From Saccharopolyspora thermophila (lineage in GTDB: Bacteria; Actinomycetota; Actinomycetes; Mycobacteriales; Pseudonocardiaceae), in NCBI RefSeq assembly GCF_014646075.1, contig NZ_BMMT01000016.1, positions 1 to 64,000 of the forward strand: a DNA stretch of 64,000 bases. The letters run 5' to 3'. Of the stretch, positions 2,246 to 33,958 are shown in pieces. The notes under the pieces are model-generated. The model had not been told where the DNA came from. It did no database searches and saw only the letters and a program-made list of their open reading frames with translations. Numbering within the stretch: position 1 is the stretch's first letter; the number at the start of each line of letters is the position of its first letter. Both the position numbers and the translations under genes were made by a program.

Positions 2246-3736
2246 TCAGCGACTGGTGAAGACCAGGTTGTGCCAGGACTTTCGCTGGTCGCCGGTGATG
2301 TCGGACATGACATGCTTGATGTTGGTGTACTCGTCGAAGGAGTACGTGGACATGTCCTTGCCGAAGCCCGATGCCTTGTAGCCCCCGTGGGGCATTTCGC
2401 TGATGATCGGGATGTGGTCGTTGATCCACACGCATCCCGCCTGGATCTCCCTGCTGGCGCGCTGGGCCCGGAAGACGTTGCTGGTCCAGGCCGAGGCGGC
2501 CAGCCCGTAGGGAGTGTCGTTGGCCAGCCGGATGGCTTCGTCGTCGGTGTCGAACGGAAGGCAGACCAGCACCGGGCCGAAGATCTCCTGCTGGACGATC
2601 TCCGAGTCCTGCGGTGCGTCGATGATCAGCGTCGGGGCGTAGTAGGCGCCCCGGGCCAGTGGACCGTCGGGGAGGTACCCGCCGCAGACGACCTTCGCAC
2701 CACCGGCTCGCGCACGCTCGACCATGCCCGCGACGTGCTCTCGTTGCCGGAAGGAGATCAGCGAGCCCATATCGGTGTCCGGATCGTCGACCGGGCCGAG
2801 CCGCACATCGGTCATCAGCTCGGCGACTCGGTGGACGAATGCCTCGTAGTGCGGTCGCTGCACGTAGGCGCGGGTGGCGGCGGTGCAGTCCTGACCGCTG
2901 TTGATGAGGGCACCGGCGACGGCACCGCGGGCAGCCGCTTCCAGGTCGGCGTCGTCGAAGACCACGAAGGGGGCTTTGCCGCCGAGCTCGAGGTGTACGC
3001 GCTTGACCTGCCCGGCTGCCGTTTTCGCGACCTCGCGTCCTACGGCGGTCGAACCGGTGAAGGACACCATGGCGATGTTCGGGTGGCTGATCAGCGCATG
3101 ACCGGCTCCCCGGCCGCTGCCGGTGACGATGTTGATGACGCCGTCGGGGATTCCGGCCTCCTGCGCGGCCTCGGCAAACATCACCGACGTCAGCGGTGTC
3201 AGCTCCGCCGGTTTGAGCACGATGGTGTTGCCCGCGGCCACCGCGGGCAGGATCTTCCACGCCGCCATCTGCAGCGGATAGTTCCAGGGGGCGATGGAGC
3301 CCACCACGCCGAGCGGTTCACGCCGGATGGTGGAGGTGTGCTCCGGTGAGTACTCGCCGGAGGATTTGCCTTCCAGGTTGCGTGCGGCTCCGGCGAAGAA
3401 GCGCACGTTGTCGATGACGCCGGGAACGTCGAAGCCCCGAGCCAGCTTGATGGGCTTGCCGCCGTTGCTGCTTTCGGTCGCGGCCAGTTCGTCGCTGCGC
3501 TGCTGGAGGAGATCGGCCCAGCGCAGCATCGCGTCGCAGCGTTCGGCTGGAGGTGTGCGTGACCACGTGGTGAATGCCTTGCGTGCGGCCTGTACCGCTT
3601 CGTCGACGTCGTCGGCGGAGGCACGCGTGTCGACTGCCAGAACCTCCCCGGTTGCGGGGTTGGTGACGGAGAAGCGCTCCTCGGAGCTGCCGCTGCGGCG
3701 CTTTCCGTTGATGAAGTGCTGTCCGGTGCTGGTCAT
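2246..3736 (-). CDS. NAD(P)-dependent aldehyde dehydrogenase (PatD-like)
   Basis: A 496-aa ALDH-superfamily enzyme. The oxyanion Asn152 (APWN), general base Glu250 (LELGGKAP) and catalytic Cys284 (SGQDCTAA) are all present, as is the C-terminal SEMPHGGYKASGFGKD segment. Overall it looks most like gamma-aminobutyraldehyde/1-pyrroline dehydrogenase (PatD/YdcW). Its place in an operon with a hydroxyproline epimerase, D-amino-acid dehydrogenase and DapA-like deaminase suggests that it instead oxidises alpha-ketoglutarate semialdehyde to alpha-ketoglutarate, the last step of hydroxyproline breakdown (inferred). Its ATG overlaps the upstream epimerase stop by one base, so the two are translationally coupled. 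Confidence 0.85.
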   Translation of the reverse strand: MTSTGQHFINGKRRSGSSEERFSVTNPATGEVLAVDTRASADDVDEAVQAARKAFTTWSRTPPAERCDAMLRWADLLQQRSDELAATESSNGGKPIKLARGFDVPGVIDNVRFFAGAARNLEGKSSGEYSPEHTSTIRREPLGVVGSIAPWNYPLQMAAWKILPAVAAGNTIVLKPAELTPLTSVMFAEAAQEAGIPDGVINIVTGSGRGAGHALISHPNIAMVSFTGSTAVGREVAKTAAGQVKRVHLELGGKAPFVVFDDADLEAAARGAVAGALINSGQDCTAATRAYVQRPHYEAFVHRVAELMTDVRLGPVDDPDTDMGSLISFRQREHVAGMVERARAGGAKVVCGGYLPDGPLARGAYYAPTLIIDAPQDSEIVQQEIFGPVLVCLPFDTDDEAIRLANDTPYGLAASAWTSNVFRAQRASREIQAGCVWINDHIPIISEMPHGGYKASGFGKDMSTYSFDEYTNIKHVMSDITGDQRKSWHNLVFTSR

Positions 3737-4833
3737 CAGCGCTCCAGTGTGGTGGGTTCGAGCGGGGCATCGTCGTGCGGTTGTGGCCCCCACAGGTCGC
3801 CGAGCACGTAGCCCTGGGGGAACGGGTCGGTGTCGTGGAGGACGAACTGGGAGAACCCGGTGATCCAGCCACGCCCGCTGATCGAGGGCAGCACCGCTTC
3901 GTGGTCGCCGATCCTCGTGGTGTCCCGCAGCGTGCCGGTGAAGGTCGTGCCGAGAATGCCTTCGTGGACGAACGGTGTGTTCAGCGCCAGCTCGCCGCGG
4001 GCGTGTAGGGCGGCCATCCGGCCGGATGTTCCGGTCCCGCAGGGGGATCGGTCCAGTGAGCCGGTCCAGGTGGCCGGGTCGGCGAGGTCGACCTCGCCGT
4101 TGGGCAGCACGACCGCGTTGCGGCCCGACGTACCGGGTGTCGGTGAGGGGCCGTGGATCATTGTCAGTGCCACCTGGTTGATGTCGGGGTTGTCCGGATG
4201 GCTGACCGGGAACTGCTGCTGAGCAGCGGCGCGCAGCACCGCGCCGGCGCGGGTGAGCTGCTTGGCGGCCAACGCGTCGAGCTCGATGCCCAGGTCCGCC
4301 GCCCGCGCCTGGACGAAGAACTGCCCGCCGAAGACGATGTCGACCGGAACCCGGCCGTATTCGGGCAGCTCCAGCACGTGGTCGAGGGCCACCGCGAAGG
4401 CGGGCACGTTGTCGAACGTGACGCGGATGGCTTTGCCCCCGGACACCTCGACACGCACCGGGACCAGGCCGACCGCGGTGTCCACGACGAGCTCGGTGAC
4501 CGGTTCGCGCACCGGCAGCGACTGGGTTTCCACCAGCGCCGTGACCGCGCAGATGAGGTTGCTGCCCGACATCGGCCGGAAACCGCCCTGTTCCAGCACG
4601 ACCAGTCCGAAGTCGGCGCGCGGATCGGCCGGGGGCAGGACGAGAACGCCGCACAGCCCCGGATAGCCGCGCGGTTCCTGCAGCAGCAGGCGGCGCAGCG
4701 GGTCGAGGTGTTCGCGGCAGTACCGCAGCCGCTCCGCCATCGTCGCGCCCTTGACGTGCAGGTGACTGCCGATGAGCACCCGTCCGGGCTCACCCTCGGC
4801 GTGCACGTCGATGGTGTGGATCGTGCTGGTCAT
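3736..4833 (-). CDS. Proline racemase-family enzyme, probable 4-hydroxyproline epimerase (Ser/Cys type)
   Basis: A 365-aa member of the proline racemase superfamily (DHTGGEP-like start, here DVHAEGEP). The superfamily uses two opposed acid/base residues. Here the first is Ser89 (MSGSNLI instead of MCGHNTI) and the second is Cys265 (SPCGTGTS). From memory, Ser/Cys pairs occur among 4-hydroxyproline epimerases, while a Cys/Thr pair marks the trans-3-hydroxyproline dehydratases. With the D-amino-acid dehydrogenase and DapA-like deaminase beside it, epimerisation of trans-4-hydroxy-L-proline to cis-4-hydroxy-D-proline is the likeliest role. The start overlaps the upstream stop by four bases (ATGA). 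Confidence 0.8.
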   Translation of the reverse strand: MTSTIHTIDVHAEGEPGRVLIGSHLHVKGATMAERLRYCREHLDPLRRLLLQEPRGYPGLCGVLVLPPADPRADFGLVVLEQGGFRPMSGSNLICAVTALVETQSLPVREPVTELVVDTAVGLVPVRVEVSGGKAIRVTFDNVPAFAVALDHVLELPEYGRVPVDIVFGGQFFVQARAADLGIELDALAAKQLTRAGAVLRAAAQQQFPVSHPDNPDINQVALTMIHGPSPTPGTSGRNAVVLPNGEVDLADPATWTGSLDRSPCGTGTSGRMAALHARGELALNTPFVHEGILGTTFTGTLRDTTRIGDHEAVLPSISGRGWITGFSQFVLHDTDPFPQGYVLGDLWGPQPHDDAPLEPTTLER

Positions 4834-5747
4834 GCTGCCACGCCGTCCTCAGCCACGGAGACGCCCGCCGCGATGAGCAGGTTGCGGAGCTCCTCGCGGT
4901 ACTGCGGTGCCAGCGGGAGGACCGGGAGCCGGGCCGGTCCGGCGCTGTTGCCGACCAGGTCGAGCCCGGTCTTGATGGCGCAGGCGTAGTTGTGCGATTC
5001 CAGGAACTGGCAGATCGGGAAGATCCTGCTCCACAGCTCCCGCCCGGCGGCGAGGTCGTTGCGGACCGCGAGCGCGTCGTAGAGTTCGGCGCACAGCTGC
5101 GGGATCAGGCTCGCGGTGCCCCACACACCCGCCTTGGCGCCGCCGGCGAGTGCGGCGAAGGTCAGGGTGTCCCAGCCGTTGAGCGCGGTGATGTCGGCGG
5201 CGTACTGCTGCTGGACAGCGGTGAATCGCGGGAAGTCCCCGCCGGTGTCCTTGTAGGACGCAATTCCGGCTTCCCGTGCGAGCTGGGCGAGTTGTTCCGC
5301 CCTGAGGTCGACACCGGTTGCTGTGGGGATGTTGTAGTACATCACGGGGATGCTGATCGCGTCCGACACCGCGCGGTAGTGGCCCACCAGTTCCTCGAAG
5401 GTCGGGGCTTCGTAGAACGGCGGCACCACCATGACAGCAGCGGCGCCCGCCTGTTCGGCGTGCACGCTCAACTCCACGGTCTCGGCGGTGCTCAATGCCC
5501 CGGTGCCGGCGACGACCGGGACACGTCCGGCGGCGGCCTCGACGTAGAGTTCGGTGACGCGCTTGCGCTCCTGCGTGGTCAAGGTCGTGAACTCGCCGGT
5601 GCTGCCGCCGGGGACCAGCCCGTGGATACCGCCGGAGATGATGTGCTCGGCCTGGCGTTTCACACCATCGGCGTCCACTTCGGACCCGTCGGCGGTCAGC
5701 GGCGTGACGACGGCGGCGAGGATGCCGGTGAACTGGGGGTCGCTCAT
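4830..5747 (-). CDS. DapA-family aldolase/deaminase, probable 1-pyrroline-4-hydroxy-2-carboxylate deaminase
   Basis: A 305-aa TIM-barrel protein of the dihydrodipicolinate synthase/N-acetylneuraminate lyase family. Visible are the GGSTGEF substrate-binding loop (47-53), Tyr138 (MYYNIP) and the Schiff-base Lys166 (IASYKDTGG). In hydroxyproline degradation this family converts 1-pyrroline-4-hydroxy-2-carboxylate to alpha-ketoglutarate semialdehyde plus ammonia. That role is inferred from the neighbours; sequence alone cannot separate it from other family activities. The start was set at ATG 5747 (MSDPQFTG), preceded by GGAAGAG; a longer in-frame extension upstream lacks family similarity. Confidence 0.8.
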   Translation of the reverse strand: MSDPQFTGILAAVVTPLTADGSEVDADGVKRQAEHIISGGIHGLVPGGSTGEFTTLTTQERKRVTELYVEAAAGRVPVVAGTGALSTAETVELSVHAEQAGAAAVMVVPPFYEAPTFEELVGHYRAVSDAISIPVMYYNIPTATGVDLRAEQLAQLAREAGIASYKDTGGDFPRFTAVQQQYAADITALNGWDTLTFAALAGGAKAGVWGTASLIPQLCAELYDALAVRNDLAAGRELWSRIFPICQFLESHNYACAIKTGLDLVGNSAGPARLPVLPLAPQYREELRNLLIAAGVSVAEDGVAA

Positions 5748-5836
5748 CAGTTCTCTTCCTTGTTCTCGGTTTCGTGCATGAGCTCTTCGGCGTGACGCGA
5801 CGCGGTCGACATCGGAGAGGACTCCATGCCGAGCAC

Positions 5837-7081
5837 TCACCAGCGCGTGAAGCGGCGAGGACTGACGTCCTCGGTGATGGCCGGGAAGCGCTGGCGGAGG
5901 ATCGCGTCGGTGACGAGTTCGGCGGTGGCGGGGGCGAGGGTGAGGCCCAGCATTCCGTGGCCGGAGGCGACGAACACGTTGGTCAGGGGGTGCAGGCGGC
6001 CGATGATGGGCAGCCCGTCCGGGGTCATGGGCCGCAGTCCGGCCCAGGGGCTGGCTTCCCCGGCGGGGTTGCCCCAGCCCGGGAAGGCTTCGGTGGCGGC
6101 GCGTTTGATCGCGGCGACCCGGCGCGGGCTGATCTTCTCGTCCAGGCCACCGAATTCCATGGTTCCGGCCAGGCGGAGCATGCCGTCCAGCGGGGTCACC
6201 GCGACGCGCGCGTCCTCCAGCGTCAGCGAGGTGCGCAGCTGGATCGGCGCGGGGGAGTAGTCGATGCTGTAGCCCTTGCCTGGCCGGATGGGCAACGGCA
6301 CACCCAGTTGCCGTGAGAGGTTCCCGGTCCACACCCCGGCGGCCAGCACGAGCGTGTCGCCGCGGAACTCGCCGCGGTCGGTGACGACAGCGGTCACGGC
6401 GTCGCCGCGCCGGACGAAGCGGCGGACCGGGGTGTGCTCGTGGATCCGCACGCCCAGCTCCTGGCAGCGCTTGAGCAGACCGCGGGTGAGCGAGTCGGGC
6501 TCCACCTGCCGGTCATCCGGGAAGAACAGCCCGTGCCGGATCCGCTCCGACAGCGCGGGCTCGAACGCCTGCACCTCCGCCCCGTGCAGCCGCTGGGGGA
6601 CCATGCCGAAGCGCTCGAAGATGTCGAGCGACCCGAGCTGCTCGTCGTAGCGCTCCCGCGTCTCGAAGGCCAGGAGCACACCCGCCTTGTGCATTTCGAA
6701 GGCGATGCCGTCGGCGGCCCACTCGTCGAGCAGGTCCATGGTGCCCTCGGCCAACCGCAGGTGGGTCTGCAGGCCGCGCCGGAAGTCGCGGGCGGTGCAG
6801 TGCCGGGCCATGCCGAGCATGAACCGGACGAAGCTCGGGTTGAGCGAGGGCCGGACGTAGAGCGGGCTGTCCGGCTTCAGCATCCACCGCAGGGACTGCA
6901 GGATGACGCCGGGCGCGGGGACCGGGCCGCTTTCGGCGAGGGCGATCTTGGCGGCGTTGCCGTGCGAGGCCGCCGCTCCGGCACTGCGCGCGTCCACGAG
7001 CTCGACCTCGCAGCCGCTCCTGGCCAGCCGGTACGCGCTGGCCAGGCCCACGACACCGGCTCCGACGACGATGATTCGCAT
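5837..7081 (-). CDS. FAD-dependent D-amino-acid dehydrogenase, probable cis-4-hydroxy-D-proline dehydrogenase
   Basis: A 414-aa DAO-family flavoprotein. The N-terminus MRIIVVGAGVVGLASAYRL carries the Rossmann dinucleotide-binding GxGxxG, and the C-terminus has the FAD-contacting GHGMLGLTLAPATAELV. It resembles DadA (D-amino-acid:quinone dehydrogenase). As first gene of the hydroxyproline-type operon it should oxidise the epimerised D-hydroxyproline to 1-pyrroline-4-hydroxy-2-carboxylate (inferred). The ATG at 7081 lies 57 bases from a perfect 10-bp inverted repeat that probably controls the operon. An 89-base gap separates it from the next gene. Confidence 0.8.
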   Translation of the reverse strand: MRIIVVGAGVVGLASAYRLARSGCEVELVDARSAGAAASHGNAAKIALAESGPVPAPGVILQSLRWMLKPDSPLYVRPSLNPSFVRFMLGMARHCTARDFRRGLQTHLRLAEGTMDLLDEWAADGIAFEMHKAGVLLAFETRERYDEQLGSLDIFERFGMVPQRLHGAEVQAFEPALSERIRHGLFFPDDRQVEPDSLTRGLLKRCQELGVRIHEHTPVRRFVRRGDAVTAVVTDRGEFRGDTLVLAAGVWTGNLSRQLGVPLPIRPGKGYSIDYSPAPIQLRTSLTLEDARVAVTPLDGMLRLAGTMEFGGLDEKISPRRVAAIKRAATEAFPGWGNPAGEASPWAGLRPMTPDGLPIIGRLHPLTNVFVASGHGMLGLTLAPATAELVTDAILRQRFPAITEDVSPRRFTRW

Positions 7082-7137
7082 GGCAGCGGTGAACCTCCTG
7101 ACAGCGCTTCGCTGCGCCGGTGATGGGGGATCTTGAG

Positions 7138-7160
7138 TGCAGATTGTCTTACAATCTGCA
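7138..7160. promoter_or_regulatory. Operator-like inverted repeat, site 1
   Basis: A perfect 10-bp inverted repeat, TGCAGATTGT-CTT-ACAATCTGCA, sits 57 bases upstream of the D-amino-acid dehydrogenase start. A 17-base run (TGCAGATTGTCTTACAA) is identical to the site before the SDR gene at 12660, and the TTGT-N3-ACAA core recurs before the ABC transporter at 9050. This form suits GntR/FCD regulators, and the one at 11621 is the obvious candidate. Confidence 0.75.
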
Positions 7161-7242
7161 GGTGTGCTGGAACACTACGGCCGGGTGTGTGAAGCCGTCA
7201 AGAAGCAGCCGTGAAGTCGCTGGAATCCGCTCCTGAACGCGC

Positions 7243-7275
7243 CAGGGGCCCGCCGTGACACGCGACGGGCCCCTG
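7243..7275 (-). terminator. Hairpin terminator after the SDR gene
   Basis: A perfect 10-bp inverted repeat (CAGGGGCCCG / CGGGCCCCTG) with a 13-base loop lies 17 bases beyond the minus-strand SDR stop at 7292, in a position to end that transcript before the hydroxyproline operon promoter. Confidence 0.7.
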
Positions 7276-7291
7276 AACTGCGCGAAAACGA

Positions 7292-7891
7292 TCAGCCGAG
7301 GGAGTAGATCTGGCCGGTCTGGGCGCCTTCGATCGAACGCACGTAGGCCAGGGCGACCTGGGCGACGTCGACCGGCTGGATGCCGGGGAAGAAGTCCCCG
7401 TACTTCGCGATGCTCTCGGTGAAGACCGTCGGGCTCACGGCGTTGATGCGCTGCGGGGCGATCTCGATCGCCGCCGCACGCACGAATGCCTCCACCGCCC
7501 CGTTGGCCATCGATGCCGCACTACCGGTGGGGATGGGATCGCGGCCCAGCACCCCGGTGATGACGGTGAACGAACCGCGCTCGGCGATGCGCGAGGTGCC
7601 CTGGCGTACCAACTCGATCTGGCTGAGCACCTTCCCGCGAAACGCGGCCTCGTAGTCCTCCGGCTTCAGCTCCGTGACGCGTCCGTAGGGCACGTCGCCG
7701 GCGGCGCTGGCCACCGCGTCCACCGCGCCGACCTCGTCGTACAGCGCGGTGACCTGAGCGGGATCGGCGACGTCGTACCTGAGATCGCCAGCGGAGCGCC
7801 CGACGGTGAGCACCTGGTGCCCCCGGCCGGTCAACGCCTCGTTGACCGCCGTGCCGAGCCTGCCCGTGGCACCGATCAAGAGAATCCTCAT
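7292..7891 (-). CDS. Short-chain dehydrogenase/reductase (small, 199 aa)
   Basis: A compact SDR with the N-terminal nucleotide-binding signature LLIGATGRLGTAV. It lacks a clear YxxxK: the equivalent region is TGSAASMANGAVEAF, where the usual Tyr is not obvious, so the reductase activity may be atypical. Similar ~200-aa SDRs are commonly divergent from a LysR regulator in actinobacteria and proteobacteria, as here. The ATG at 7891 was preferred over an upstream start because the Rossmann motif begins straight after it. The 69-bp region shared with the LysR gene should hold both promoters. Substrate unknown. Confidence 0.75.
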   Translation of the reverse strand: MRILLIGATGRLGTAVNEALTGRGHQVLTVGRSAGDLRYDVADPAQVTALYDEVGAVDAVASAAGDVPYGRVTELKPEDYEAAFRGKVLSQIELVRQGTSRIAERGSFTVITGVLGRDPIPTGSAASMANGAVEAFVRAAAIEIAPQRINAVSPTVFTESIAKYGDFFPGIQPVDVAQVALAYVRSIEGAQTGQIYSLG

Positions 7892-7960: not shown

Positions 7961-8842
7961 ATGAATGTGGAGCTGCGGCACCTGCGTGCCCTGGCCGCGA
8001 TCGGGCGCGAGGGCACCATCACCGGCGCGGCGGCGGCTCTGCACATCTCCCAGCCCGCGCTGTCGCGCACCCTCGACCAGCTCGAGGGCAGGCTCGGCAC
8101 CCGGCTCGTCGAACGCACCACCCGCCGCCTGGAGCTTACGGAGGCCGGGCAGCGCCTGTGGGAGCACGCGTGTCGCCTGCTCAACCAACTCGACGACGCG
8201 CTCGCCGAAGTCAAGGCCGGGCCTCGCCCGCTGCGGGTCGGGTTCGCCTGGGCGACGTTGGGTGCCCTCACGGTGCCGCTGCTCCAGCAATGGCGCGAGG
8301 AGCACCCCGACTCTCCCGTGCGCATCTACCGCCGCGACGACCCCGAAGCCGCGTTGCGCCGAGCCGAGATCGACATCGCCTTCCTGCGCACGCAGCCCCC
8401 GCCGGGGTTCAACGCGGTCGCGCTGCTGCACGAGCGTCGCATGGCGGCCGTGGCCGACACCGATCCGCTGGCCCATGCGGACGCGGTACGGCTGGCCGAC
8501 CTCGCCGACCGGCAGGTGGTCCTCTGCGCGACAGCTGCCACCACCACAGCCTCCCTGTGGCCGCCGGAGCGGCGGCCCCGCACGGTCGAGGTCGCCAACG
8601 TCGACGAATGGCTCACCGTGATCGCCACCGGTGACGCCGTCGGCGTCACCGCGGAAGGAACCCGGCACAGCCACCCCTACCCGGGGGTCCGGTACGTGCC
8701 GGTGCTTGATGTCGATCCCGTCACCGTGCACCTGGTCTGGCCACGCAATCCCGCGCATCCGGACACCGAAGCATTCCGCGAGCACGTGCGGCGCGCGGTT
8801 GGTGCCGTGCGGTCCGCGCGGGAGCGCGTGGGTCTTTCGTAA
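7961..8842 (+). CDS. LysR-family transcriptional regulator
   Basis: 293 aa. Residues 1-60 form the LysR winged helix-turn-helix (LRHLRALAAIGREG, AAALHISQPALSRTLDQLE, RTTRRLELTEAG), followed by a periplasmic-binding-like effector domain (PLRVGFAWATLGAL onward). It is divergent from the small SDR gene, the usual arrangement for a LysR protein controlling its neighbour and itself (inferred). Effector unknown. Confidence 0.9.
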   Translation: MNVELRHLRALAAIGREGTITGAAAALHISQPALSRTLDQLEGRLGTRLVERTTRRLELTEAGQRLWEHACRLLNQLDDALAEVKAGPRPLRVGFAWATLGALTVPLLQQWREEHPDSPVRIYRRDDPEAALRRAEIDIAFLRTQPPPGFNAVALLHERRMAAVADTDPLAHADAVRLADLADRQVVLCATAATTTASLWPPERRPRTVEVANVDEWLTVIATGDAVGVTAEGTRHSHPYPGVRYVPVLDVDPVTVHLVWPRNPAHPDTEAFREHVRRAVGAVRSARERVGLS

Positions 8843-8980
8843 CGGTTCACCGCGCGGCGAGGGCGGCACGCTGTTGTGCGGGTCCGTGCGGCCCAGGCGT
8901 GCCGGCGGCGCCGTGCAACGTCTCCTGAACGGTTCAGCCTTGACGTCTGTGAGGCAAGACACCACGCTATGTCGCACACA

Positions 8981-9007
8981 ACTGAAGATTGTCAAACAAT
9001 CTTCAGT
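8981..9007. promoter_or_regulatory. Operator-like inverted repeat, site 2
   Basis: A perfect 12-bp inverted repeat, ACTGAAGATTGT-CAA-ACAATCTTCAGT, lies 43 bases upstream of the ABC transporter binding-protein start at 9050. It shares GATTGT-N3-ACAATC with site 1, and the three-base spacing is the same. Confidence 0.75.
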
Positions 9008-9049
9008 TTTCTGGCGCACTGTGGCGTCTGCCGACCCGCGGAGGAGCGG

Positions 9050-9889
9050 ATGAAAAAGTCAACCAAGCAGTCGTTGGGTGTGCTCGCCCTCGTCATCGTG
9101 GCGGTGCTGGGCGGGTGGGTCGGTTCCGGATTCCGGGGTGGTGGCGCAGCCGACGGGATCGAGGCCAACCAGTGGATGAACAAGATCAGGCAGCGCGGTG
9201 AGCTGCGCGTGGGAGTCGCCATCGCGCCGCCGATGACCGACGAGAGAAACGGGGTGCTCGGCGGTCCCAATCTGATTCCGCTGCAGGACCTGGCCGAACA
9301 GCTCGGCGTGCGGCTCACGCCCGTTCCGGCGGACTGGAGCAACATCGTGGCCGGGCTGCAGGCGGACCGCTACGACGTGGCGGCCAATCTTGACCAGACT
9401 CTGCAGCGCGCCGTGTCGATCCAGTTCACCGACCCGGTCTACGAGTACCAGGGGGTGTTCGTCGTTGCGTCCTCGTCCCCGCTGAACAGCTCGGCTGCGA
9501 TCCTGGCCGCGGGACAACCGGTCGCGACGGCACAGGGCAGCGCGACCGGAGCAGCGGTGCGGGCGGCCGGTGCGCAGCTTGTGGAGTTGGCCGAGTACAC
9601 CGACGCGCTGCAGGCGGTGCAGGCGGGCCGGGCAATCGCCGAGTTCACCGATCTGCCGACTGCCGTGTCGCAGGTGCAGGCCAACCCGGCCTTCAAGATC
9701 GTCGTCCCGGATCCTCCGATCTACTCCGCGTACTCCGCCTACGGGGTCCCGCGAGACATCGACCCGCAGTCGATGCGCACGCTCAACATCGCGATCAACA
9801 ACGCCCGGGCGAACGGATCGCTGGACCGTGCCTACGCCGAGGTGAACTACCGCACGATCGACAAGCTCGGCGACCTCCAGAAGAAGTGA
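9050..9889 (+). CDS. ABC transporter substrate-binding protein, polar amino acid type
   Basis: 279 aa. An N-terminal hydrophobic stretch (about residues 8-27, after MKKSTKQ) acts as a signal peptide or anchor; no lipobox cysteine is visible. The mature part is a type II periplasmic-binding fold of the SBP_bac_3 family (RGELRVGVAIAPP, DRYDVAANLDQT, FTDPVYEYQGVFVV). First gene of a three-gene importer, with a GGAGGAG ribosome site and a strong palindromic operator upstream. The operator is shared with the hydroxyproline operon, which suggests uptake of hydroxyproline or a related imino acid (inferred). Confidence 0.88.
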   Translation: MKKSTKQSLGVLALVIVAVLGGWVGSGFRGGGAADGIEANQWMNKIRQRGELRVGVAIAPPMTDERNGVLGGPNLIPLQDLAEQLGVRLTPVPADWSNIVAGLQADRYDVAANLDQTLQRAVSIQFTDPVYEYQGVFVVASSSPLNSSAAILAAGQPVATAQGSATGAAVRAAGAQLVELAEYTDALQAVQAGRAIAEFTDLPTAVSQVQANPAFKIVVPDPPIYSAYSAYGVPRDIDPQSMRTLNIAINNARANGSLDRAYAEVNYRTIDKLGDLQKK

Positions 9890-9896
9890 GCCACGA

Positions 9897-10637
9897 ATGT
9901 CCTCCTACGATGTCGACTGGAACTTCGTCTTCTCCTCGATCCCAACGCTGCTCGGCGGACTCGTCACGACACTGCAGATCGCGGCGCTGACCATCGCACT
10001 GAGCATGGTCCTCGCGGTCCCCGTGGCGATGGCGCGGATGGCGGAGTTCGACCTTGTGCGGTGGATCGCGCAGGGCTACATCGAGATCTTCCGCTGCACC
10101 CCGATGCTCGTGCAGCTGTTCTGGATCTACTTCGCGCTGCCCGCGCTCACCGGTGTCACCATTCCCGGTTTCGCGTCCGCGGTCATCGCGCTGACGGCGA
10201 ATCTGACCGCGTTCATGGCCGAGGCATACCGCAGCGGCTTCCAGGCGGTGCCCGTGGAGCAGATCGAGGCCGGGAAGATGCTGCGTCTGAACACGATCCA
10301 ACGGCTGCGCTACATCATCCTGCCGCAGGCCGTGCGCCAGCAGCTCCCGGTGATCCTGTCGCTGAACATCTCGATGTTCAAGGACACCGCTCTGGTGTCG
10401 ACGATCGCGGTGGCCGATCTGATGTTCAAGGCCAACACCCTGGCCACCCAGTCCTACAAGGCGCTGGAGGTGCTGAGCCTGGCGGCGGCCATGTACTTCG
10501 TGATCGCCTTCCCCGTCTCGCTGCTGACCAGCTACCTCGAACGGCGGTCGCAGACCGCGGCCGCCCGGCGCAGTGCACCGAAGAAGAAGTCCCGCACCGA
10601 ATCCGACGCCGCGACCCCGATCGGAGCGACCAGGTGA
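9897..10637 (+). CDS. ABC transporter permease, polar amino acid type
   Basis: 246 aa, HisM/GlnP family. About five membrane helices are visible (TTLQIAALTIALSMVLAV, and so on). The cytoplasmic EAA loop is EAYRSGFQAVPVEQIEAGKM, the ATPase-contact signature of amino acid importers, followed by PQAVRQQLPVILS. It follows the binding protein by 7 bases and its stop overlaps the ATPase start. Only one permease is present, so it probably works as a homodimer. The basic C-terminal tail (KKKSR) is probably cytoplasmic. Confidence 0.88.
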   Translation: MSSYDVDWNFVFSSIPTLLGGLVTTLQIAALTIALSMVLAVPVAMARMAEFDLVRWIAQGYIEIFRCTPMLVQLFWIYFALPALTGVTIPGFASAVIALTANLTAFMAEAYRSGFQAVPVEQIEAGKMLRLNTIQRLRYIILPQAVRQQLPVILSLNISMFKDTALVSTIAVADLMFKANTLATQSYKALEVLSLAAAMYFVIAFPVSLLTSYLERRSQTAAARRSAPKKKSRTESDAATPIGATR

Positions 10638-11550: not shown

Positions 11551-11620
11551 GCTGCAGTTCTGGATGCAACAATAAGGGCCGGGTGTGCTGCGCAGGGGCC
11601 CAGCGGAGCGGGAGATTCGG

Positions 11621-12301
11621 ATGAGCGTTGACGAAGCGGCGGTGACCATCAGTGGAGGTGCGGTGACGCTGCGCACCCGCCGGGAGGAGGTCGTCAAGCG
11701 CATTCGGCACGCCCTGCTGACGGGGGAGCTCAAACCCGGCCAGCGGATCAAGGAAGCCCGACTGGCGGAGTCGCTGGGGGTCAGTCGCCCGACGCTGCGC
11801 GAGTCGCTCCAGCAGCTGGTGCACGAGGGCTCCCTCGTGCAGATCCCGCACAAGGGCGTCCACGTGGCGGCGCCGACGCCGGAAGAGTTGCTCGACGTCG
11901 CTGAAGTGCGCGTGTCGTTGGAGACGATGGCAGCGCTGCGGCTGGCCAAGGATCCGCAGGGCGAGGCGATGGACGAGGTCCGTGCCGCACTGGACCGGCA
12001 CCTCGCGGCGATCGACTCCGGCGACGAGGTCCAGACCGACGTCACCCACTTCGAGCTGCACCGCACGATCTGGGAGATGTCGGGAAGCGTCACCCTGCGC
12101 AAGATCTGGCCCCTGGTGGGCAGCCAGGTCCAACGTGCGCTGAGCGTCGACCAGGCGACGATGCGCAACCCCGAGCGCGATGCCGAACTGCATCGCAGGC
12201 TCATCCGGGTGATCGAGGAGGGCGATGAGGAGACGATCGTCGCCGAGGTGCGCGCCCACATCCAGGCCAGCGTCGCCGAGGTGGTCCGCCGGCTCGCGTA
12301 G
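11621..12301 (+). CDS. GntR-family regulator with FCD domain
   Basis: 226 aa from ATG 11621, chosen because GGGAG lies nine bases upstream; an in-frame extension to 11585 has no such site. The N-terminal winged helix is clear (GELKPGQRIKEARLAESLG, VSRPTLRESLQQL), and the all-helical C-terminal FCD ligand domain contains the conserved D/H metal-binding pattern (HFELHRTIWEMSG; DAELHRRLIRVIEEGD). It lies between the ABC transporter and two SDR genes, all carrying similar palindromes upstream, and is the probable repressor of this group and of the hydroxyproline operon (inferred). Confidence 0.88.
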   Translation: MSVDEAAVTISGGAVTLRTRREEVVKRIRHALLTGELKPGQRIKEARLAESLGVSRPTLRESLQQLVHEGSLVQIPHKGVHVAAPTPEELLDVAEVRVSLETMAALRLAKDPQGEAMDEVRAALDRHLAAIDSGDEVQTDVTHFELHRTIWEMSGSVTLRKIWPLVGSQVQRALSVDQATMRNPERDAELHRRLIRVIEEGDEETIVAEVRAHIQASVAEVVRRLA

Positions 12302-14378: not shown

Positions 14379-16247
14379 CTACGTGGCGGTGCTGTGTCGC
14401 GGGCTGGGGGTGGAGTGGACGTTGCGTGGGTCGCCCGGGCGTGGGTCGGGTTTGCCGGCGATGGTGACCCAGAGGTTGGGGTCGAAGTGGTCTCGGGGGA
14501 GTTGGGCGACCATGTAGCGGACACTGCGTTCCACCTTCACGCGCCAGCGGCGGGCCGCCTCGGTGCCGTCGCCGTTGCGGATCGCCTCGTAGATACCGAT
14601 GTCCTCGCGGGCGATGAGGTCCACGGCTTCGGCCCAGTCCAGTCGCAGGATCGCGTTGAACATGCGCAGCCGGATGGTGAGGCGGTCGAAGATCCGGCCT
14701 GCTTCGGGCAGTTGCGCTGTTCGTGCGATGGCGTCCTGGAAGCGGAGGTCGGCTTCGCCGATGCGGGTGTGGTCGCCGTGCCCGGCGACCACGCGTACCT
14801 CGGCCAAGGCGGTGCTGACCGAGCGCAGGGCGGAGCGGGGGAGCATGGCGACGCGGCGCATCAGCAGGCCGCCCAAGCAGGCGCGCACGGCATACAGGTC
14901 AAGGATGTTGGTAGCGGTGACGTGCGGAACGGCGACTCCGCGGTTGGGTAGCAGTTCGAGCATCCCTTCTTCGGCGAGCACCCGCAGCGCCTCGCGCACG
15001 GGTCCGCGGGAGACGCCGAGCCGGGTCGCCAGCGGTGCTTCCTTGACGCGTTCGCCGGGCCCGAACTGGCCGTTGGCGAGCGCTTCGCGGACGAGCTGGG
15101 CCACCCGGTCGGCGATGCGGGGCGTGCCCGATGCGACGTCGTCGGGCGACGTGTGCTCATCGGCACCGGCCCGTTCGGCGTGGGAGTCACCAGCCGACTT
15201 CGAGTCGTTGACAAGCCCGTGATACTCGCGGTCTCCGCTCCAGAGAGCTCGCGGGCTCTTGGTCCACGAGAACGGCCGGGATGGCGCGGTCCAGGTGGTG
15301 CACCAGGCACGAACGTCGTCGCGGAGGCGTGCCAGCGAGGCCGCGAAGCCGAGCACGTCCTCGTGGCTGGGCAGCGGGTTGTGCGCCAGGAGGACGTCGA
15401 CCTCGTCGATCCACGAACCGTCTGGCGCAACGGCGTGCTGGTGGAACCGCGGGTGCCCTGCCAACCAGGTGTCCAGCGTGTCGTGAGCATCGGGGCTCAG
15501 GCCGTCGACGAGCAGGTGGACGGCCATCCTTGCGGGCACGGCACGGTCGAGATGTTCCAGGAAGGCCCGCAGCGGCGTGCTGTCGGCAGGCCCGTCGTGG
15601 GTGTTCGCGCTGCCTCTGACCAGTGCGAACGCGTTCGCCACAGCGAACAGTTCCCGCGCCTGCGCGGACCGGGTGGTCGGCGTCGTGACCGCGTGGTCAG
15701 GCACCGCGTGGTCGTCGGCCGCGACGGCCAGTACCCGCGCGGGAGGGTCGAGGAAGAGTCCGACCACGTCGCGGATCTTGAGCGGGAGCAGAGTGCGCGC
15801 CGCGCCCGGGCACAGCGCCGAGTGCCCCGGCCTCGGCCGGATTCGGTAGGTGCGCCAGATACGGCTCACCGTCGACTGGCTGAGCCCGACCGCTTCGGCC
15901 ATGGAGCGCGTCGACCAACGACGCCCGATGGGCGGTGGGGACAGGGTGCGCACGAGGACCTGCGCGATGGTGTCGTCGCTGATGGCCGAGGGGCGACCGG
16001 GACGCGGCCGTTCGGCGAGACCGTTCAGGCGTTCGGCGACGAACCGGGACCGCCAGGTGCGGACGGTGTCCACGGAGACGCCGAGCCGTTCGGCCACGGC
16101 CGTGTTGGTGACCTCCTGCTCGCACGCCAGCACGATCCGCGCCCGCAGCACCAGCGCTTGCGAGCAGCTGCGGCTGCGCGTCCAGCTCACCAGCGTGGAA
16201 CGTTCGCTGTCGGTGAGGACCACCGCGTCGCGGGGGCGCCGAGCCAT
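14379..16247 (-). CDS. IS630-type transposase fused to a GntR/FCD regulator
   Basis: One uninterrupted 622-aa frame. Residues ~1-145 are the IS630-family N-terminal HTH pair (LTDSERSTLVSW, NTAVAERLGVSVDTVRTW, GLSQSTVSRIWRTYRI). Residues ~150-345 follow the IS630 DDE domain order (IRDVVGLFLDPP, MAVHLLVDG, GHPRFHQH, SWIDEVD, RPFSWTKSP). The first Asp (VDEKS in relatives) reads ADDH with Ala at the aligned site, and the last Glu is Asp, so transposition activity is probably lost. After a ~40-aa linker comes a full GntR winged helix (GQFGPGERVKE, LGVSRGPVREALRVL) and FCD domain to the C-terminus. No credible independent start lies before the GntR part. It is divergent from an MFS transporter, its likely target. 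Alternatively it is a chance read-through from a decaying element. Confidence 0.8.
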   Translation of the reverse strand: MARRPRDAVVLTDSERSTLVSWTRSRSCSQALVLRARIVLACEQEVTNTAVAERLGVSVDTVRTWRSRFVAERLNGLAERPRPGRPSAISDDTIAQVLVRTLSPPPIGRRWSTRSMAEAVGLSQSTVSRIWRTYRIRPRPGHSALCPGAARTLLPLKIRDVVGLFLDPPARVLAVAADDHAVPDHAVTTPTTRSAQARELFAVANAFALVRGSANTHDGPADSTPLRAFLEHLDRAVPARMAVHLLVDGLSPDAHDTLDTWLAGHPRFHQHAVAPDGSWIDEVDVLLAHNPLPSHEDVLGFAASLARLRDDVRAWCTTWTAPSRPFSWTKSPRALWSGDREYHGLVNDSKSAGDSHAERAGADEHTSPDDVASGTPRIADRVAQLVREALANGQFGPGERVKEAPLATRLGVSRGPVREALRVLAEEGMLELLPNRGVAVPHVTATNILDLYAVRACLGGLLMRRVAMLPRSALRSVSTALAEVRVVAGHGDHTRIGEADLRFQDAIARTAQLPEAGRIFDRLTIRLRMFNAILRLDWAEAVDLIAREDIGIYEAIRNGDGTEAARRWRVKVERSVRYMVAQLPRDHFDPNLWVTIAGKPDPRPGDPRNVHSTPSPRHSTAT

Positions 16248-16534
16248 GCGGGAATCCTAGGAGGACTTCTGACTCAGAACAACCCTGGATGCTGGTGGAG
16301 CTGCACGGGCGTTGTCGACGAACGAACCAGTTCGCATACTTCGTCGCTATCCGGTGGCCACGCCGCCGTCGCCGACACGGCACCGCGAGCTCGTAACAAC
16401 CCAGTGCAGCCCCCCTCGCCCGACAACTCAAGCGGCAGCGCACCCCTCGATCCGCAGGGCCCGGCGGGTCCCCACGGTGGCCTGATCGGTGTGACGGCTG
16501 AGTCCTGGTGAGACAGCGATCGCAGGAGCTCATC

Positions 16535-17899
16535 GTGGAGCATTCCATTATCGACAACCAGCCCTACGGGCGGTTCCACCGCAAACTGTTCTTCCTCTCC
16601 TCTGGTGGCCCGTTCCTCGACGGTTACATCCTCAGTGTCATCGGCGTGGCCATCACCGGGGCGACGCGCGAGCTGGAACTGACGTCCTTCCTGGAAGGTG
16701 TGGTCGGTGCCGCCGCGTTGGTCGGTGTGCTGGTGGGTGGCTTCGTCTTCGGCTGGGTCACCGACCGCGTCGGGCGCCAGGTCATGTACACGATCGATCT
16801 GATCGCGCTGGTGCTCGCCTCGGCGCTGTCGTTGTTCGTCACGGAGGCGTGGCAGCTGATCGTGCTGCGTTTCGTCGCCGGGATCGCGGTCGGGGCCGAC
16901 TATCCGATCGCCACGTCGTTGCTGGCGGAATGGCTGCCGGCGAACCGGCGCGGTCGAACGATGGGTGCTCTGGTCGCAGCGTGGTTCGTCGGTGCGTCGG
17001 CCTCCTACGCCGTGGGTTACCTGGTGGCCGTCGTCGGCGGGGACGGGCTGTGGCGGTGGGTGCTGGCTAGTGCAACCGTGCCGGGAGTGATCATCCTGCT
17101 GGCGCGGATCGGCACACCCGAGTCGCCTCGCTGGCTGTTGCGGCACAACCGGCCCGATGCCGCACGTGAGGCGATCCGCACCGCGTTCGGTCGCTGTCCG
17201 ACCGAACAGGAGCTCGCGCACTTGGCGGAGCACGAACCCCCGAAGAAGTCGCGGCTGTCGGAGGTGTTCCGCGGCGGCTACCTGGGACGCACCCTGTTCG
17301 TCGGGGGCTTCTGGATGTGCCAGGTCGCGCCTGCTTTCGCGATCTGGACCTTCTATCCGGTGATCCTCGGTGCTTACGGCTTCGAGGAGGGCAACACCGC
17401 ACTGCTGTGGTCGATGGTGGTCAGCCTGGTGACGCTTGCCGGGTGCTTCCCCTGCATCTTCTGGGTCGAGAGCATCGGACGCAGGCCGGTCATCATCTGG
17501 ACCTTCGTCGGCGTGACGGTCTCGATGGCGGCCCTGGGCCTGTTCCCCGGCATGGTCGCCACGCTGGCGATCCTGATGTTCGTCGTCAACGCACTCGCGC
17601 TGGGCGGGGGCAACATCCTGCAGTGGATCTACCCGACGGAGCTGTTCCCCACCGACATCCGTGCCTCGGCGGTGGGGGTGGCCAGTGCGATCAGCCGGAT
17701 CGGCGCGGCCGCGGGGACCTACCTGCTTCCCGTCGGGCTCGACACCATCGGGCTCGGGCCGACGATGCTCGTCGGCGCCGGGATCGCCGCCGTCGGCACC
17801 GCGATGTGCCTGGCCTGGGCACCCGAGACGAAGGGGAAGGCCCTGCACGAATCCGCCACCGTCGTCCAGAGGTCAGCGGCGCCAGCCACGACCAGGTAG
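16535..17899 (+). CDS. MFS metabolite:proton symporter, sugar-porter type
   Basis: 454 aa with 12 predicted membrane helices. MFS loop motifs are visible (GWVTDRVGRQ after TM2, and ESIGRRPVI after TM8), with PESPRWL before the central loop and PTELFPTDIRASAVG near TM10, as in the sugar porter/metabolite symporter group. GTG 16535 was chosen because AGGAG is 6-7 bases upstream; a GTG at 16508 has none. It is divergent from the transposase-GntR fusion gene across a ~290-bp region, which fits control by that protein. Substrate unknown. Confidence 0.85.
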   Translation: MEHSIIDNQPYGRFHRKLFFLSSGGPFLDGYILSVIGVAITGATRELELTSFLEGVVGAAALVGVLVGGFVFGWVTDRVGRQVMYTIDLIALVLASALSLFVTEAWQLIVLRFVAGIAVGADYPIATSLLAEWLPANRRGRTMGALVAAWFVGASASYAVGYLVAVVGGDGLWRWVLASATVPGVIILLARIGTPESPRWLLRHNRPDAAREAIRTAFGRCPTEQELAHLAEHEPPKKSRLSEVFRGGYLGRTLFVGGFWMCQVAPAFAIWTFYPVILGAYGFEEGNTALLWSMVVSLVTLAGCFPCIFWVESIGRRPVIIWTFVGVTVSMAALGLFPGMVATLAILMFVVNALALGGGNILQWIYPTELFPTDIRASAVGVASAISRIGAAAGTYLLPVGLDTIGLGPTMLVGAGIAAVGTAMCLAWAPETKGKALHESATVVQRSAAPATTR

Positions 17900-27179: not shown

Positions 27180-29432
27180 GTGCGGTTCAACGACAGCGGC
27201 GGGCCGCAGACCGCTGCTGAGCAGCGGCTCGACGACCTGCTCACGGGGCGCCTGGCGCAGACCGACGGACAGGTCGAGCGCGCCGCCGCCGGGGCGGCAC
27301 AGGAGCGGGAGATCCGCGGGGAGTTCCTGGCCCGCCGGTTGATCGACTCGCTGGAGGAGGACGGCTGGCGGCCGTTCGCCCGGCGCAGTGTGCAGCCGCT
27401 GGTGATCCGCGTCGCGGACGCGCTGATCACCGGGGCGTTCGAGGTGCGCAACGCCGACCTGCCCTACCTGGTGGAGTTCGTGGACTGCCGGTTCGAGACC
27501 GCGCCGGACCTGCGCCAGGCGCGGTTGGCCGGGCTGGTGCTGTCGCGCTGCCGGTTCCCCGGGCTGCTGGCCCGCAACCTCACCGTCAGCACCGACGCGG
27601 TGCTGGTGGACTGCGCGAGCATCGGAGGTGTCGTCGACCTGGCGGATGCGGAGCTGGGCGGTTCGCTGCTGCTCACCGGCAGCGAGCTGCGCAACCCGGG
27701 CCAGCGGTGCGTCTACGCCGACCGGCTGTCGGTCACCGGCGCGCTGCTGGGCGTCCGGCTGCGCACCAGCGGCGAGATCCGCATCCCGGGTGCGCAGATC
27801 GGTGGGAACCTGACGCTGTCCGGTGCGGCCCTGCGCAACAGGAGCCGCACCGCACTCAACGCCACCGGCGTCCGCATCGGCGGTTCGCTGCGCCTCGACG
27901 TCGACCGGGCGACCGGTACCGCGTTCACCGCGGCGGGCCGATTGGTGCTGCCGAGCGCGCGCATCGCCGGTGACCTGCGGCTGCGGGGCGCTGTGCTGGA
28001 ACCGGGCGTGCCGCCGCCGCGACGCAGCGACTCGCAGTACCACGACCCGGCCGCCACCGTCGTCGCCGACCGCTGCGAGGTTCGCGGCGACGTCCAGTTC
28101 GACGGGGACTTCCGCAGCGGCGGCACGATCCGGCTGGTCAGCGCCGTCATCGGCGGAAACCTGCGGATGCCCGGGGCGCGGATCGACGTCGGGTGGCTGC
28201 GCTCGCCGGCGGAGTCGGTGGAGCAGCCGCTGCGCGCGGTGCACCTGGACGGCACGCAGATCCGCGGGAACCTCGACGCCAGCGCGGCGCAGGTGCGCGG
28301 TCAGGTCCGGATCACCGACGTCCAGGTCAGCGGCAGCGTGCAGCTCACCAACGCGCGGCTGGTGGGCCCGCGCACCGATGTGCTGCGGGCGAGCCGGATC
28401 AGCGTGGGCAGCAACCTGGAGTGCCGGGATGCGGAGATCGTCGGATCGCTGCAGCTGCCCGGCGCGCGGGTCGGTGCGAACGTCGACCTGCGGTCCACGC
28501 AGCTCACCAAACCCGCCTGGCACGGGCACCGCAACACCTACAAGGCGTCGCTGGACCTGCGGGCCGCCCGCATCGAACGCGACCTGATCTGCGCCGAGGG
28601 CAGCAGGCCGTTCCGCGCCGAGGGGGCGGTGGAGCTGCGGTGGGCGCAGATCGGCCGCCACCTCAACTTCTCGGGCTGCGAACTGGGCGACGGCACGTCC
28701 AGAACGGCGCTCAACGCCTTCGGCGTGGTGGCCCAGGATCTGACGCTCCTGCCGAACGAGGCACCGCACGGGCGGATCGCGCTGGGTCAGGCGCAGTGCG
28801 AGCTGTTCGCCGACAACGCTGCGGTCTGGCGGGCCACCGGCGGTGTCGACTTCGACGACTTCAGCTACACGAACTTCGCCGACTCCTTCGAACACCACGA
28901 CCGGGACCGGGTTCGGCAGCGCCTCGACTGGCTGCGCGCCACCTCCGGCGGCGCCTACCAGCCGGGCCCCTACGACCAGCTGGCCGAGGTGTTCCGGGCC
29001 AACGGCCTGGAGGAGCACGCGGTCGCGGTGCTGATCGAGAAGCAGCGCCACCGCTACGCCGCGATCGCGGCCACGGCCCGTCCGGGCCTGCGGTGGCCGG
29101 TGCGGATGTGGAGCCTCCTGCAGCGGCTCACCGTCGGCTACGGCTACCGGCCGCTGCGCGCGCTGGCCTGGCTGCTGCTGTTCGCTGCGGCGGGCACCGC
29201 GTGGTTTGACGCCCACCCGCTGGTCCCGATCAACGAGCAGGACCACCCGGTCTGGAGCCCGCTGCTGTACACAGTGGACCAGATGCTGCCGGTGGTCACC
29301 CTGGGCCACGACGACATGTGGCAGGCCCGGGGAGTCTCCCAGTGGGTCAGCGTGGTTCTCGTGGCGGTGGGCTGGATCCTGGCCACCACCATCGCAGCGG
29401 GCATCAGCCGAGGACTGAACCGCGACCGCTGA
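27180..29432 (+). CDS. Large beta-helix-repeat membrane protein
   Basis: 750 aa from GTG 27180, six bases after GGGAGG. A charged helical N-terminus (~1-60) is followed by about 500 residues of degenerate ~20-residue repeats of the form IGGNLxLxGAxLxNxxxxAL (for example QIGGNLTLSGAALRNRS, QIGRHLNFSGCELGDG). These predict a right-handed beta-solenoid like bactofilin or pentapeptide-like surfaces. A helical segment and 2-3 C-terminal membrane helices (ALAWLLLFAAAGTAWF; VVLVAVGWILATTIAAG) follow. Streptomyces homologues are sometimes labelled membrane-associated oxidoreductase, but no cofactor motif is seen. Function unknown; a scaffold or sensor is plausible. Confidence 0.8.
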   Translation: MRFNDSGGPQTAAEQRLDDLLTGRLAQTDGQVERAAAGAAQEREIRGEFLARRLIDSLEEDGWRPFARRSVQPLVIRVADALITGAFEVRNADLPYLVEFVDCRFETAPDLRQARLAGLVLSRCRFPGLLARNLTVSTDAVLVDCASIGGVVDLADAELGGSLLLTGSELRNPGQRCVYADRLSVTGALLGVRLRTSGEIRIPGAQIGGNLTLSGAALRNRSRTALNATGVRIGGSLRLDVDRATGTAFTAAGRLVLPSARIAGDLRLRGAVLEPGVPPPRRSDSQYHDPAATVVADRCEVRGDVQFDGDFRSGGTIRLVSAVIGGNLRMPGARIDVGWLRSPAESVEQPLRAVHLDGTQIRGNLDASAAQVRGQVRITDVQVSGSVQLTNARLVGPRTDVLRASRISVGSNLECRDAEIVGSLQLPGARVGANVDLRSTQLTKPAWHGHRNTYKASLDLRAARIERDLICAEGSRPFRAEGAVELRWAQIGRHLNFSGCELGDGTSRTALNAFGVVAQDLTLLPNEAPHGRIALGQAQCELFADNAAVWRATGGVDFDDFSYTNFADSFEHHDRDRVRQRLDWLRATSGGAYQPGPYDQLAEVFRANGLEEHAVAVLIEKQRHRYAAIAATARPGLRWPVRMWSLLQRLTVGYGYRPLRALAWLLLFAAAGTAWFDAHPLVPINEQDHPVWSPLLYTVDQMLPVVTLGHDDMWQARGVSQWVSVVLVAVGWILATTIAAGISRGLNRDR

Positions 29433-29457
29433 CGCAGCCGGTCCAGGAACCCAAAAG

Positions 29458-30672
29458 CTACGGACAGCGGCCGTCCGGTGTTCGCGCGAGGGCGGAACCG
29501 CCAAGCGCTGCGGCCAGCAGCAGTGCGGCGCCGAAGAGGTAAACGGTCGCGATGCCGAGCCCATCGGCGAGGAGACCGCCCAGTAGGAGGCCGACCAGTC
29601 GGCCGGTCTGGAACAACGCGTCGAACCCGGCGAACACGCGGCCCCGCACGGCCTCCTCGGTGCGGACCTGGACGAGGCTGGTGAACGTGATGGTGCCGGT
29701 CGAGGCGCCCGCCCCGTGGAGCACCAGCGCTCCGGCGGCCACCGGCGCCCGCGTCGTCAACGCCAGCAGGAGGTCCACCAGACCACGCAGCCCGAAGGAA
29801 CCGAAGACGACGCCCGGACGCGCTGCGTCGCGCACTAGGCGGTTCAGCAGCGCGGGACCGGCGAGGGCGCCGACCGCGGTGGCGGCCAGCAACCAACCGA
29901 ACCCCTGCGGGCCCAGGCCGAGGCGCTGGCGGGCGAGCACCACGAGCAGCGCGCCGGTCGCCCCGGAGGCCAGGGCGGCGAGCAGGTGCGCGGCAGCCAG
30001 CGCGCGCAGCAGCCGGTCGGTGACGAGCAGGCGCGCGCCGTCAAGCGCATCGCGCAGCCAGCCGCGCGAGGACGCTACGACCCGGCCACCGGGTACCGCC
30101 AGGCCGGTGAGCAGCGCGGCGCTGATCGCGAAGGACGCGGCGTTGATCCAGAACGCGGCGGCGAACCCGGCCGCGGCGACGAGCACCCCCGCCAGCGGCG
30201 CCAGCGCGATCTGCGCGACCACCGCGGTGGTCCACACACCGGAGTTGGCGGCGACGAGCTCGCGTTCGCCGACCATCGCGGGCAGCAGGCTGTTGGCCGC
30301 GGGGCTGAAGAACACTGTGGCCGTGGACAGCGCGAACGCGATGGCGTAGATCGCGGACACGTGCGCATCGACCAGGGGCAGCGCCGCGGCGAGTGCGGCG
30401 CGGACCAGATCGGCCGTGATCATGACCTGGCGCCTGGGCAGGCGGTCGACCACGACACCGGCCAGGGGAGCGAACAGCAGGGGCAGGGCGTCGGCGACCA
30501 CCACGCCCGCCACGCCCAGGCCCGAACCGGTGCGGTCCAGCACCAGCAGGAGCAGGGCCACCCCGGACAGGAGGTCCCCGGCGCGCGAGATCACCGAAGC
30601 CGCCCACCACCGCCGGTAGGTGGGGCGCGCGAGCAACGCGCGCACCGTGGTCCGGCCCGGTTCCGCCGTCAC
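29458..30672 (-). CDS. MFS exporter (enterobactin-exporter/DUF894-like)
   Basis: 404 aa, 12 predicted membrane helices, starting GTG 30672 after GGGAGG. The first helix region WWAASVISRAGDLLSGVALL and the loop GVVVDRLPRRQVM match the drug/siderophore-exporter branch of MFS. It lies 27 bases after pqqE on the same strand and is probably the last gene of the pqqADE transcript, so export of the pathway's product is a reasonable inference. Confidence 0.8.
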   Translation of the reverse strand: MTAEPGRTTVRALLARPTYRRWWAASVISRAGDLLSGVALLLLVLDRTGSGLGVAGVVVADALPLLFAPLAGVVVDRLPRRQVMITADLVRAALAAALPLVDAHVSAIYAIAFALSTATVFFSPAANSLLPAMVGERELVAANSGVWTTAVVAQIALAPLAGVLVAAAGFAAAFWINAASFAISAALLTGLAVPGGRVVASSRGWLRDALDGARLLVTDRLLRALAAAHLLAALASGATGALLVVLARQRLGLGPQGFGWLLAATAVGALAGPALLNRLVRDAARPGVVFGSFGLRGLVDLLLALTTRAPVAAGALVLHGAGASTGTITFTSLVQVRTEEAVRGRVFAGFDALFQTGRLVGLLLGGLLADGLGIATVYLFGAALLLAAALGGSALARTPDGRCP

Positions 30673-30699
30673 GGTTGCCCTCCCGCCCCGCGACGGGCC

Positions 30700-32065: not shown

Positions 32066-32096
32066 CGCCCTCCTCGCGGACGACCCCGCGCGGGCG

Positions 32097-33946: not shown

Positions 33947-33958
33947 TAGGGCGCCGGC

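Follow-up and report, generated by a model that had tools for sequence, protein, structure and literature searches.

A single-frame fusion of an IS630-type transposase to a GntR/FCD regulator, a probable domesticated repressor of actinomycetes

The 64,000-nucleotide stretch of Saccharopolyspora thermophila DNA analysed here (the window) carries, at 14379..16247 on the minus strand, a gene for a 622-amino-acid protein in which an IS630-type transposase is joined through a linker to a GntR/FCD regulator. We consider it reasonably likely that this protein is a domesticated, metabolite-responsive repressor with two DNA-binding modules, born of an IS630 insertion, and the analyses below suggest that part of a bacterial control system derives from a mobile element. 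Counting the window copy, 16 intact fusions were found in Saccharopolyspora, in a second genus of its family and in Streptomyces, that is, in two bacterial families; the comparisons rest mostly on 15 intact copies read at the DNA level, since the sixteenth (L105) was found later.

One reading frame for transposase and regulator

The frame opens with an ATG at 16247 and runs through 622 codons to 14379, stop-free until its end. The first-pass annotation had described a single-frame fusion of an IS630-type transposase to a GntR/FCD protein at these positions, and both the description and the coordinates were borne out by the frame itself, by Pfam and NCBIfam matches, by collinear alignment and by the 15 other intact full-length copies; the strand is minus. 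At the N-terminus, roughly over residues 30-135, lie the transposase's two helix-turn-helix (HTH) modules (15843..16160, minus strand; PF13551, PF13565), matched above the Pfam cut-offs by HTH_29 (residues 35-95, 53.8 bits) and HTH_32 (residues 61-131, 60.3 bits). Besides, the NCBIfam model of IS630 transposases, NF033545, scored 100.9 bits against a cut-off of 100, with its best stretch at residues 35-138, which places the region among IS630 HTH regions. Residues 141-340 (15228..15827, minus strand) make up a degenerate DDE core that is apparent from alignment to 16 IS630 enzymes; no DDE family stood among the best 25 of the 41 Pfam families matched to the fusion protein. In the same alignment, the N-terminal 350 residues are collinear with the 16 transposases, down to the enzyme's last residues, N-D-S. 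A linker (residues 341-374; 15126..15227, minus strand), fast evolving by its dN/dS, leads over to the GntR winged helix (residues 379-440; 14928..15113, minus strand; PF00392, 58.1 bits with 27 needed) and the FCD effector domain (residues 450-569; 14541..14900, minus strand; PF07729, 36.3 bits with 24.3 needed). As both of the latter exceed their cut-offs, the C-terminal half belongs to the FCD subfamily of GntR regulators, and with all Pfam matches above cut-off, the claim of two HTHs plus a complete GntR/FCD part was confirmed.

A credible start codon for the GntR half alone had been said to be lacking, and this holds: the single ATG, GTG or TTG in codons 315-382 is GTG382, which lies inside the GntR domain. 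A transcript start within the linker, checked on the sequence, is not indicated either, as no start codon near the linker is common to the 15 copies and a conserved promoter-like block in the 15 upstream regions sits just upstream of the full-length start, not at the linker. In a structure model of the transposase half, the 10-residue mean pLDDT was 80-94 for residues 11-80 and 91-130. FadR-type (FCD) GntR regulators (2hs5, 3ihu, 7xp0/7xp1) were among the best sequence and fold matches in the PDB, and a Foldseek search with the N-terminal half gave a weak match to the DNA-binding domain of SETMAR (7s03, E 0.077); structure matches of the fusion protein were weak overall, which we counted against the proposed mechanism.

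Ungapped columns of the alignment to IS630 enzymes place the catalytic triad at D178 (15714-15716), D248 (15504-15506) and D284 (15396-15398; all minus strand), meaning that the Glu alone is changed in the window copy. Of the triad state read in the first pass, the kept middle Asp and the exchange of the Glu for Asp stand, whereas the supposed replacement of the first Asp by Ala does not, D178 being in an ungapped column. D-D-E occurs in none of the 15 fusions versus 15 of 16 aligned IS630 enzymes (the remaining one has D-E-E), those 16 rows having been chosen by hand and by a motif that includes the Glu. From fusion to fusion the triad of the 15 copies varies (DDD, DGD, TGD, RGE, RHR, DGE, PDR, GGE); judged from these alignments, catalysis has decayed while both HTHs have been kept.

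Selection was estimated by the Nei-Gojobori approach for eight pairs of fusions. The dN/dS values were 0.10-0.37 for the transposase HTH region (residues 1-140), 0.25-0.61 for the DDE part, 0.39-1.64 for the linker in seven pairs (one was not computable), 0.08-0.32 for the GntR domain and 0.06-0.27 for the FCD domain; mean pairwise identity was 0.61 in the HTH region as in the GntR helix, and 0.35 in the DDE core. In this test, which the first-pass annotation had called for, neither part of the transposase half came near 1. By these estimates the transposase HTHs are under purifying selection, and an HTH region that is constrained next to a DDE core that is less so is the pattern expected if DNA binding was kept and catalysis was not.

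Fossil ends of an IS630 element

A fossil left terminal inverted repeat of IS630, TCTGAGTCAGAAGTCCTC, lies at 16261..16278 (minus strand), starting 31 nt ahead of the start codon. It was detected with an end matrix built from 27 IS630 ends (consensus CCTGAGTCGTTAATTCGT, preceded by TA-GTGT in most), for which it is the top-ranking of 33,966 positions on both strands of 17 kb at the window locus. A left end 31-34 nt before the fusion start was among the top 3 of 27,568-33,966 positions in 14 of 15 copies and ranked first in nine; in L079 it was not recognisable with this matrix (rank 43). When a 14-base core pattern derived from the fusions was searched in the 5.36-Mb source genome, the one match fell exactly at the fossil repeat, and a reversed control gave none. 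In the window copy, the TA adjoining the left repeat is absent, as is the two-ended arrangement of terminal repeats that marks an IS630 element.

Alignment of the 15 upstream regions further revealed a conserved CTAC..T block, from which we presume a -10 box of the fusion gene, TAGGAT (16254..16259, minus strand), 7-12 nt before the ATG; the fusion transcript is probably leaderless. Also conserved among the fusions is GAGTC, the core of the repeat, which lies upstream of this box.

The opposite end of the element survives as a remnant within the coding sequence. IS630 elements target TA, and in 14 of 16 of them the stop codon of the transposase is the TAG closing the right end (...GGA CAC TAG in most); the repeat therefore encodes the final residues of the enzyme, and the TA target plus one flanking base make up the stop. 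Since the enzymes thus end inside the right repeat and take their stop from target and flank, these elements look prone to in-frame fusions. The fusion gene of the window holds in its linker the right-end remnant AAC GAC TCG (N347 D348 S349; 15201..15209, minus strand). An in-frame GAC-TC(A/G) of this kind is present in 14 of 16 fusions, being absent from L077 and L079, and the outer right-end bases GGACAC are gone from the fusion frame. For L084 and L078, the sole better match to an IS630 end than the left end was their own right-end remnant, and the remnant of L023p ranked second. The serine codon of the remnant is TCA in 7 of the 14 copies that keep it, and TCA accounts for 4.3% of serine codons in 15 fusion genes. 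Three present-day IS630 frames (L096, L087, L044) continue in frame past their right end into the flank, with TAC instead of TAG following the element in L096, and we regard their sequences as living parallels to the proposed fusion origin, so that how a bacterial regulator arose can be tested step by step.

We propose that, in an ancestral actinomycete, a GntR/FCD gene received a complete IS630 element on its upstream side and in its reading frame, whereupon a changed base in the stop codon formed by TA and flank would have let translation continue into the neighbouring gene, and the left end of the element would have become the core promoter of the fusion gene. The ends, the in-frame remnant and the membership of the fusions in one clade can be read directly; the order of events is what we infer from them.

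The divergent promoter and a two-module model

Next to the fossil left end, a divergent sigma-70-like promoter, TTGTCG-N17-CATACT, with the palindrome-like TTGTCGACGA at its -35, occupies 16312..16340 on the plus strand; this was the one match in the window, where none was found elsewhere with up to two mismatches. The motif is conserved among copies: in 14 of 15, TTGTNN-N17-CA(T/G)ACT (N18 in L076), read toward the divergent gene, begins 65-67 nt ahead of the fusion start, and L105, found after this rule was made, carries it 66 nt before its start (15 of 16 overall). Wherever both were recognised, the divergent -35 starts 33-35 bp from the fossil repeat's outer edge. The conserved promoter is absent from L077, where a reverse-transcriptase-like frame (3667-6069; by eye of the group II intron type) was noted upstream of the fusion. 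FCD-type GntR regulators have a GT..AC palindrome as their binding class. A GntR-type palindrome, TTGTYRACRA, sits on the divergent -35 in only 7 of 15 copies, and by this count the GntR site is the weakest part of the two-module model.

In the window, the divergent gene (16535..17899, plus strand) encodes an MFS transporter (PF00083, PF07690) whose homologues stand beside fusions elsewhere; the mechanical frame begins at GTG 16508, and GTG 16535 fits the start in L085 better. By our reading of the loci, 9 of 15 copies have as divergent neighbour an MFS gene homologous to the one in the window, and in two more such a gene comes after an OYE-like gene; the other divergent neighbours are a proline-racemase-like gene (L081, below its NCBIfam cut-offs), an amine oxidase (L084) and a DHDPS-like gene (L021), with none seen in L077. 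Examples of neighbours above cut-off in one library (Pfam or NCBIfam) comprise MFS, RidA, DAO, amine oxidase, DHDPS, OYE-type and aminobutyraldehyde dehydrogenase proteins. The earlier idea that the fusion perhaps acts on the divergent MFS promoter gains from the conservation of a divergent promoter at a fixed distance. Elsewhere in the window (11585-12301), a separate GntR-type regulator lies near two SDR-family genes.

In the model that we favour, the transposase HTHs would occupy the fossil left repeat and repress the fusion's own promoter, a GntR dimer would bind at the divergent promoter, and the two modules together would keep an importer and the catabolic genes of an amino acid or amine silent, repression ending once a metabolite binds to the FCD domain. 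That an exapted transposase gave a regulator a second DNA-binding module, as suggested at the outset, is supported as far as sequence comparison goes, with binding of either module putative.

It is rather unlikely, yet deserves weighing, that the GntR/FCD half regulates alone, with the transposase half serving as a conserved scaffold or dimerisation arm that has lost DNA binding and the left-end block being kept only as promoter. The block does overlap the presumed -10 region, and two Streptomyces copies (L082 and L083; 2 of the 17 copies outside the source genome) retain the GntR half without the transposase half, the rest being 72-82% identical to Streptomyces kin; in these the HTHs may be dispensable, or the copies may be decaying. 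On the other hand, constraint on the HTHs is nearly as strong as on the GntR helix in both dN/dS and identity, and the GAGTC core is conserved although it lies upstream of the presumed -10. More doubtful is an extension of the favoured model in which the protein would pair both fossil ends, the left at its promoter, the right some 1.04 kb farther downstream within its own frame, to form a metabolite-controlled repression loop built on what is left of the transposon paired-end complex. This reading is motivated by the persistence of the right-end remnant in 14 of 16 copies within an otherwise fast-changing linker, by the use of the rare serine codon TCA in half of these, and by the high rank of the remnant as an IS630 end in L084, L078 and L023p; the remnant may also be mere ancestry.

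Animals are known to have gained transcription factors by capturing transposases, and host-transposase fusions have been described in animals (PMC12062965, PMC10027918). The primate SET-Hsmar1 mariner fusion SETMAR is reported to have retained binding to terminal inverted repeats, to bind transposon ends and to repress the bound loci (PMC9062482, PMC8327481). Like SETMAR, the fusion described here combines a host protein with a transposase of the wider IS630-Tc1-mariner group, joins a transposase DNA-binding domain to a host domain, has lost catalytic residues and is under purifying selection; the conserved left-end block, taken together with the conserved HTHs, suggests that SETMAR-style binding to transposon ends may likewise be retained. 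It differs in being bacterial rather than primate, in having a partner of the ligand-sensing regulator type instead of a methyltransferase, and in that the fossil repeat is the gene's own promoter. CSB-PGBD3, too, regulates genes as a host protein with a transposase attached (PMC3459987). That protein is made by alternative splicing, whereas the bacterial fusion would have arisen by read-through of the element's right end. TldR proteins descend from TnpB, are RNA-guided and unrelated to DDE transposases, and we know of none fused to a metabolite-sensing regulator. They are transcription factors of mobile-element origin nonetheless (PMC13418256), and those from mobile elements that PMC8987985 names in its relevant passages are Xre, RHH and antitoxin proteins, with no transposase in that enumeration. 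Among the matches listed in open-licence literature, we found neither a bacterial IS630-GntR fusion nor any other bacterial DDE transposase fused to a metabolite-sensing regulator.

With IS630 transposases the fusion shares the HTH pair, the collinear DDE region, the C-terminal N-D-S and the end sequences, but its family has lost the triad, its right end is ruined and a C-terminal regulator was gained; with FadR-type (FCD) GntR regulators it shares winged helix and FCD domain, but its first 375 or so residues are transposase and linker. On the features compared, it is a host-transposase fusion and not an IS630 member, and it was not filed as the latter because triad, element ends and mobility are lacking. 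If the favoured model is true, bacteria would offer here an example of a captured DNA-binding domain that has kept its equally captured binding site, the fossil end, as a neighbour, protein and operator having arrived in one insertion.

Distribution and ancestry of the fusion family

Full-length fusions occur in S. hirsuta and S. spinosa as well as in three records from Streptomyces, in additional genomes of the window's genus and family, and in additional Streptomyces genomes; eight relatives are 50-75% identical to the window fusion over the full length. The distribution is patchy, which we counted against the favoured model: the fusion was found in 5 of 22 genomes of the genus (source genome included), in 1 of 394 genomes drawn from the class, which was the source genome itself, and its relatives in 6 of 199 and 6 of 229 genomes of two overlapping Streptomyces draws (2 and 1 of these, respectively, hold only copies without the transposase half), all of which are lower bounds, as in the large searches scoring was confined to the few top candidates of each genome. 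The fused homologues that the first-pass annotation had asked for thus exist in the form of the 16 intact copies, with the qualification that the two Streptomyces copies mentioned above lack the transposase half and a paralogue in the source genome is decayed.

In a tree with the 16 IS630 enzymes, the 15 N-terminal halves fell on one side of a single branch (100/100). The C-terminal halves, including two from the truncated copies, formed one group against four stand-alone GntR proteins (99/99), an outgroup too small to show the parent, and sub-groups matched between the two trees. By this phylogeny, all compared fusions stem from one fusion event and constitute one clade.

Three further readings are touched by the copy numbers. 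It is very unlikely that the protein is a trans-acting IS630 silencer, a dead transposase that competes for IS630 ends and whose GntR half makes silencing metabolite-dependent: the upstream block does resemble the ends of present-day IS630 elements, yet in the source genome, with scores for all 71 candidates, the 29 further matches all leave the transposase half uncovered, the repeat core is found a single time, and the linkage to catabolic genes would be left unexplained. That the fusion is an IS630 variant still able to move, with the GntR part as a passenger domain, is scarcely credible, for although some genomes hold several copies (four intact paralogues in Streptomyces LHD-70), three of those four, compared with one query, are 44-46% identical to it or the query itself, D-D-E is lacking in 15 of 15 fusions, the outer bases GGACAC are lost from the frame, and in the source genome no near-identical mobile copies were found, only one copy and one decayed paralogue at 59% identity. 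A recent chance fusion heading for decay, of which that paralogue might be a sign, is just as hard to believe given 16 intact copies in two bacterial families and purifying selection in the eight pairs measured.

The decayed paralogue itself (L086; G000:C10:133000-147000) spans 139061-140800, with an internal TAG and no in-frame start for the first 35 residues, and adjoins an aldehyde dehydrogenase gene, with an amine-oxidase-like gene also in its vicinity. In L023, two paralogous fusions lie close together (6001-7866, plus strand, and 8551-10398, minus strand), each with a divergent MFS gene.
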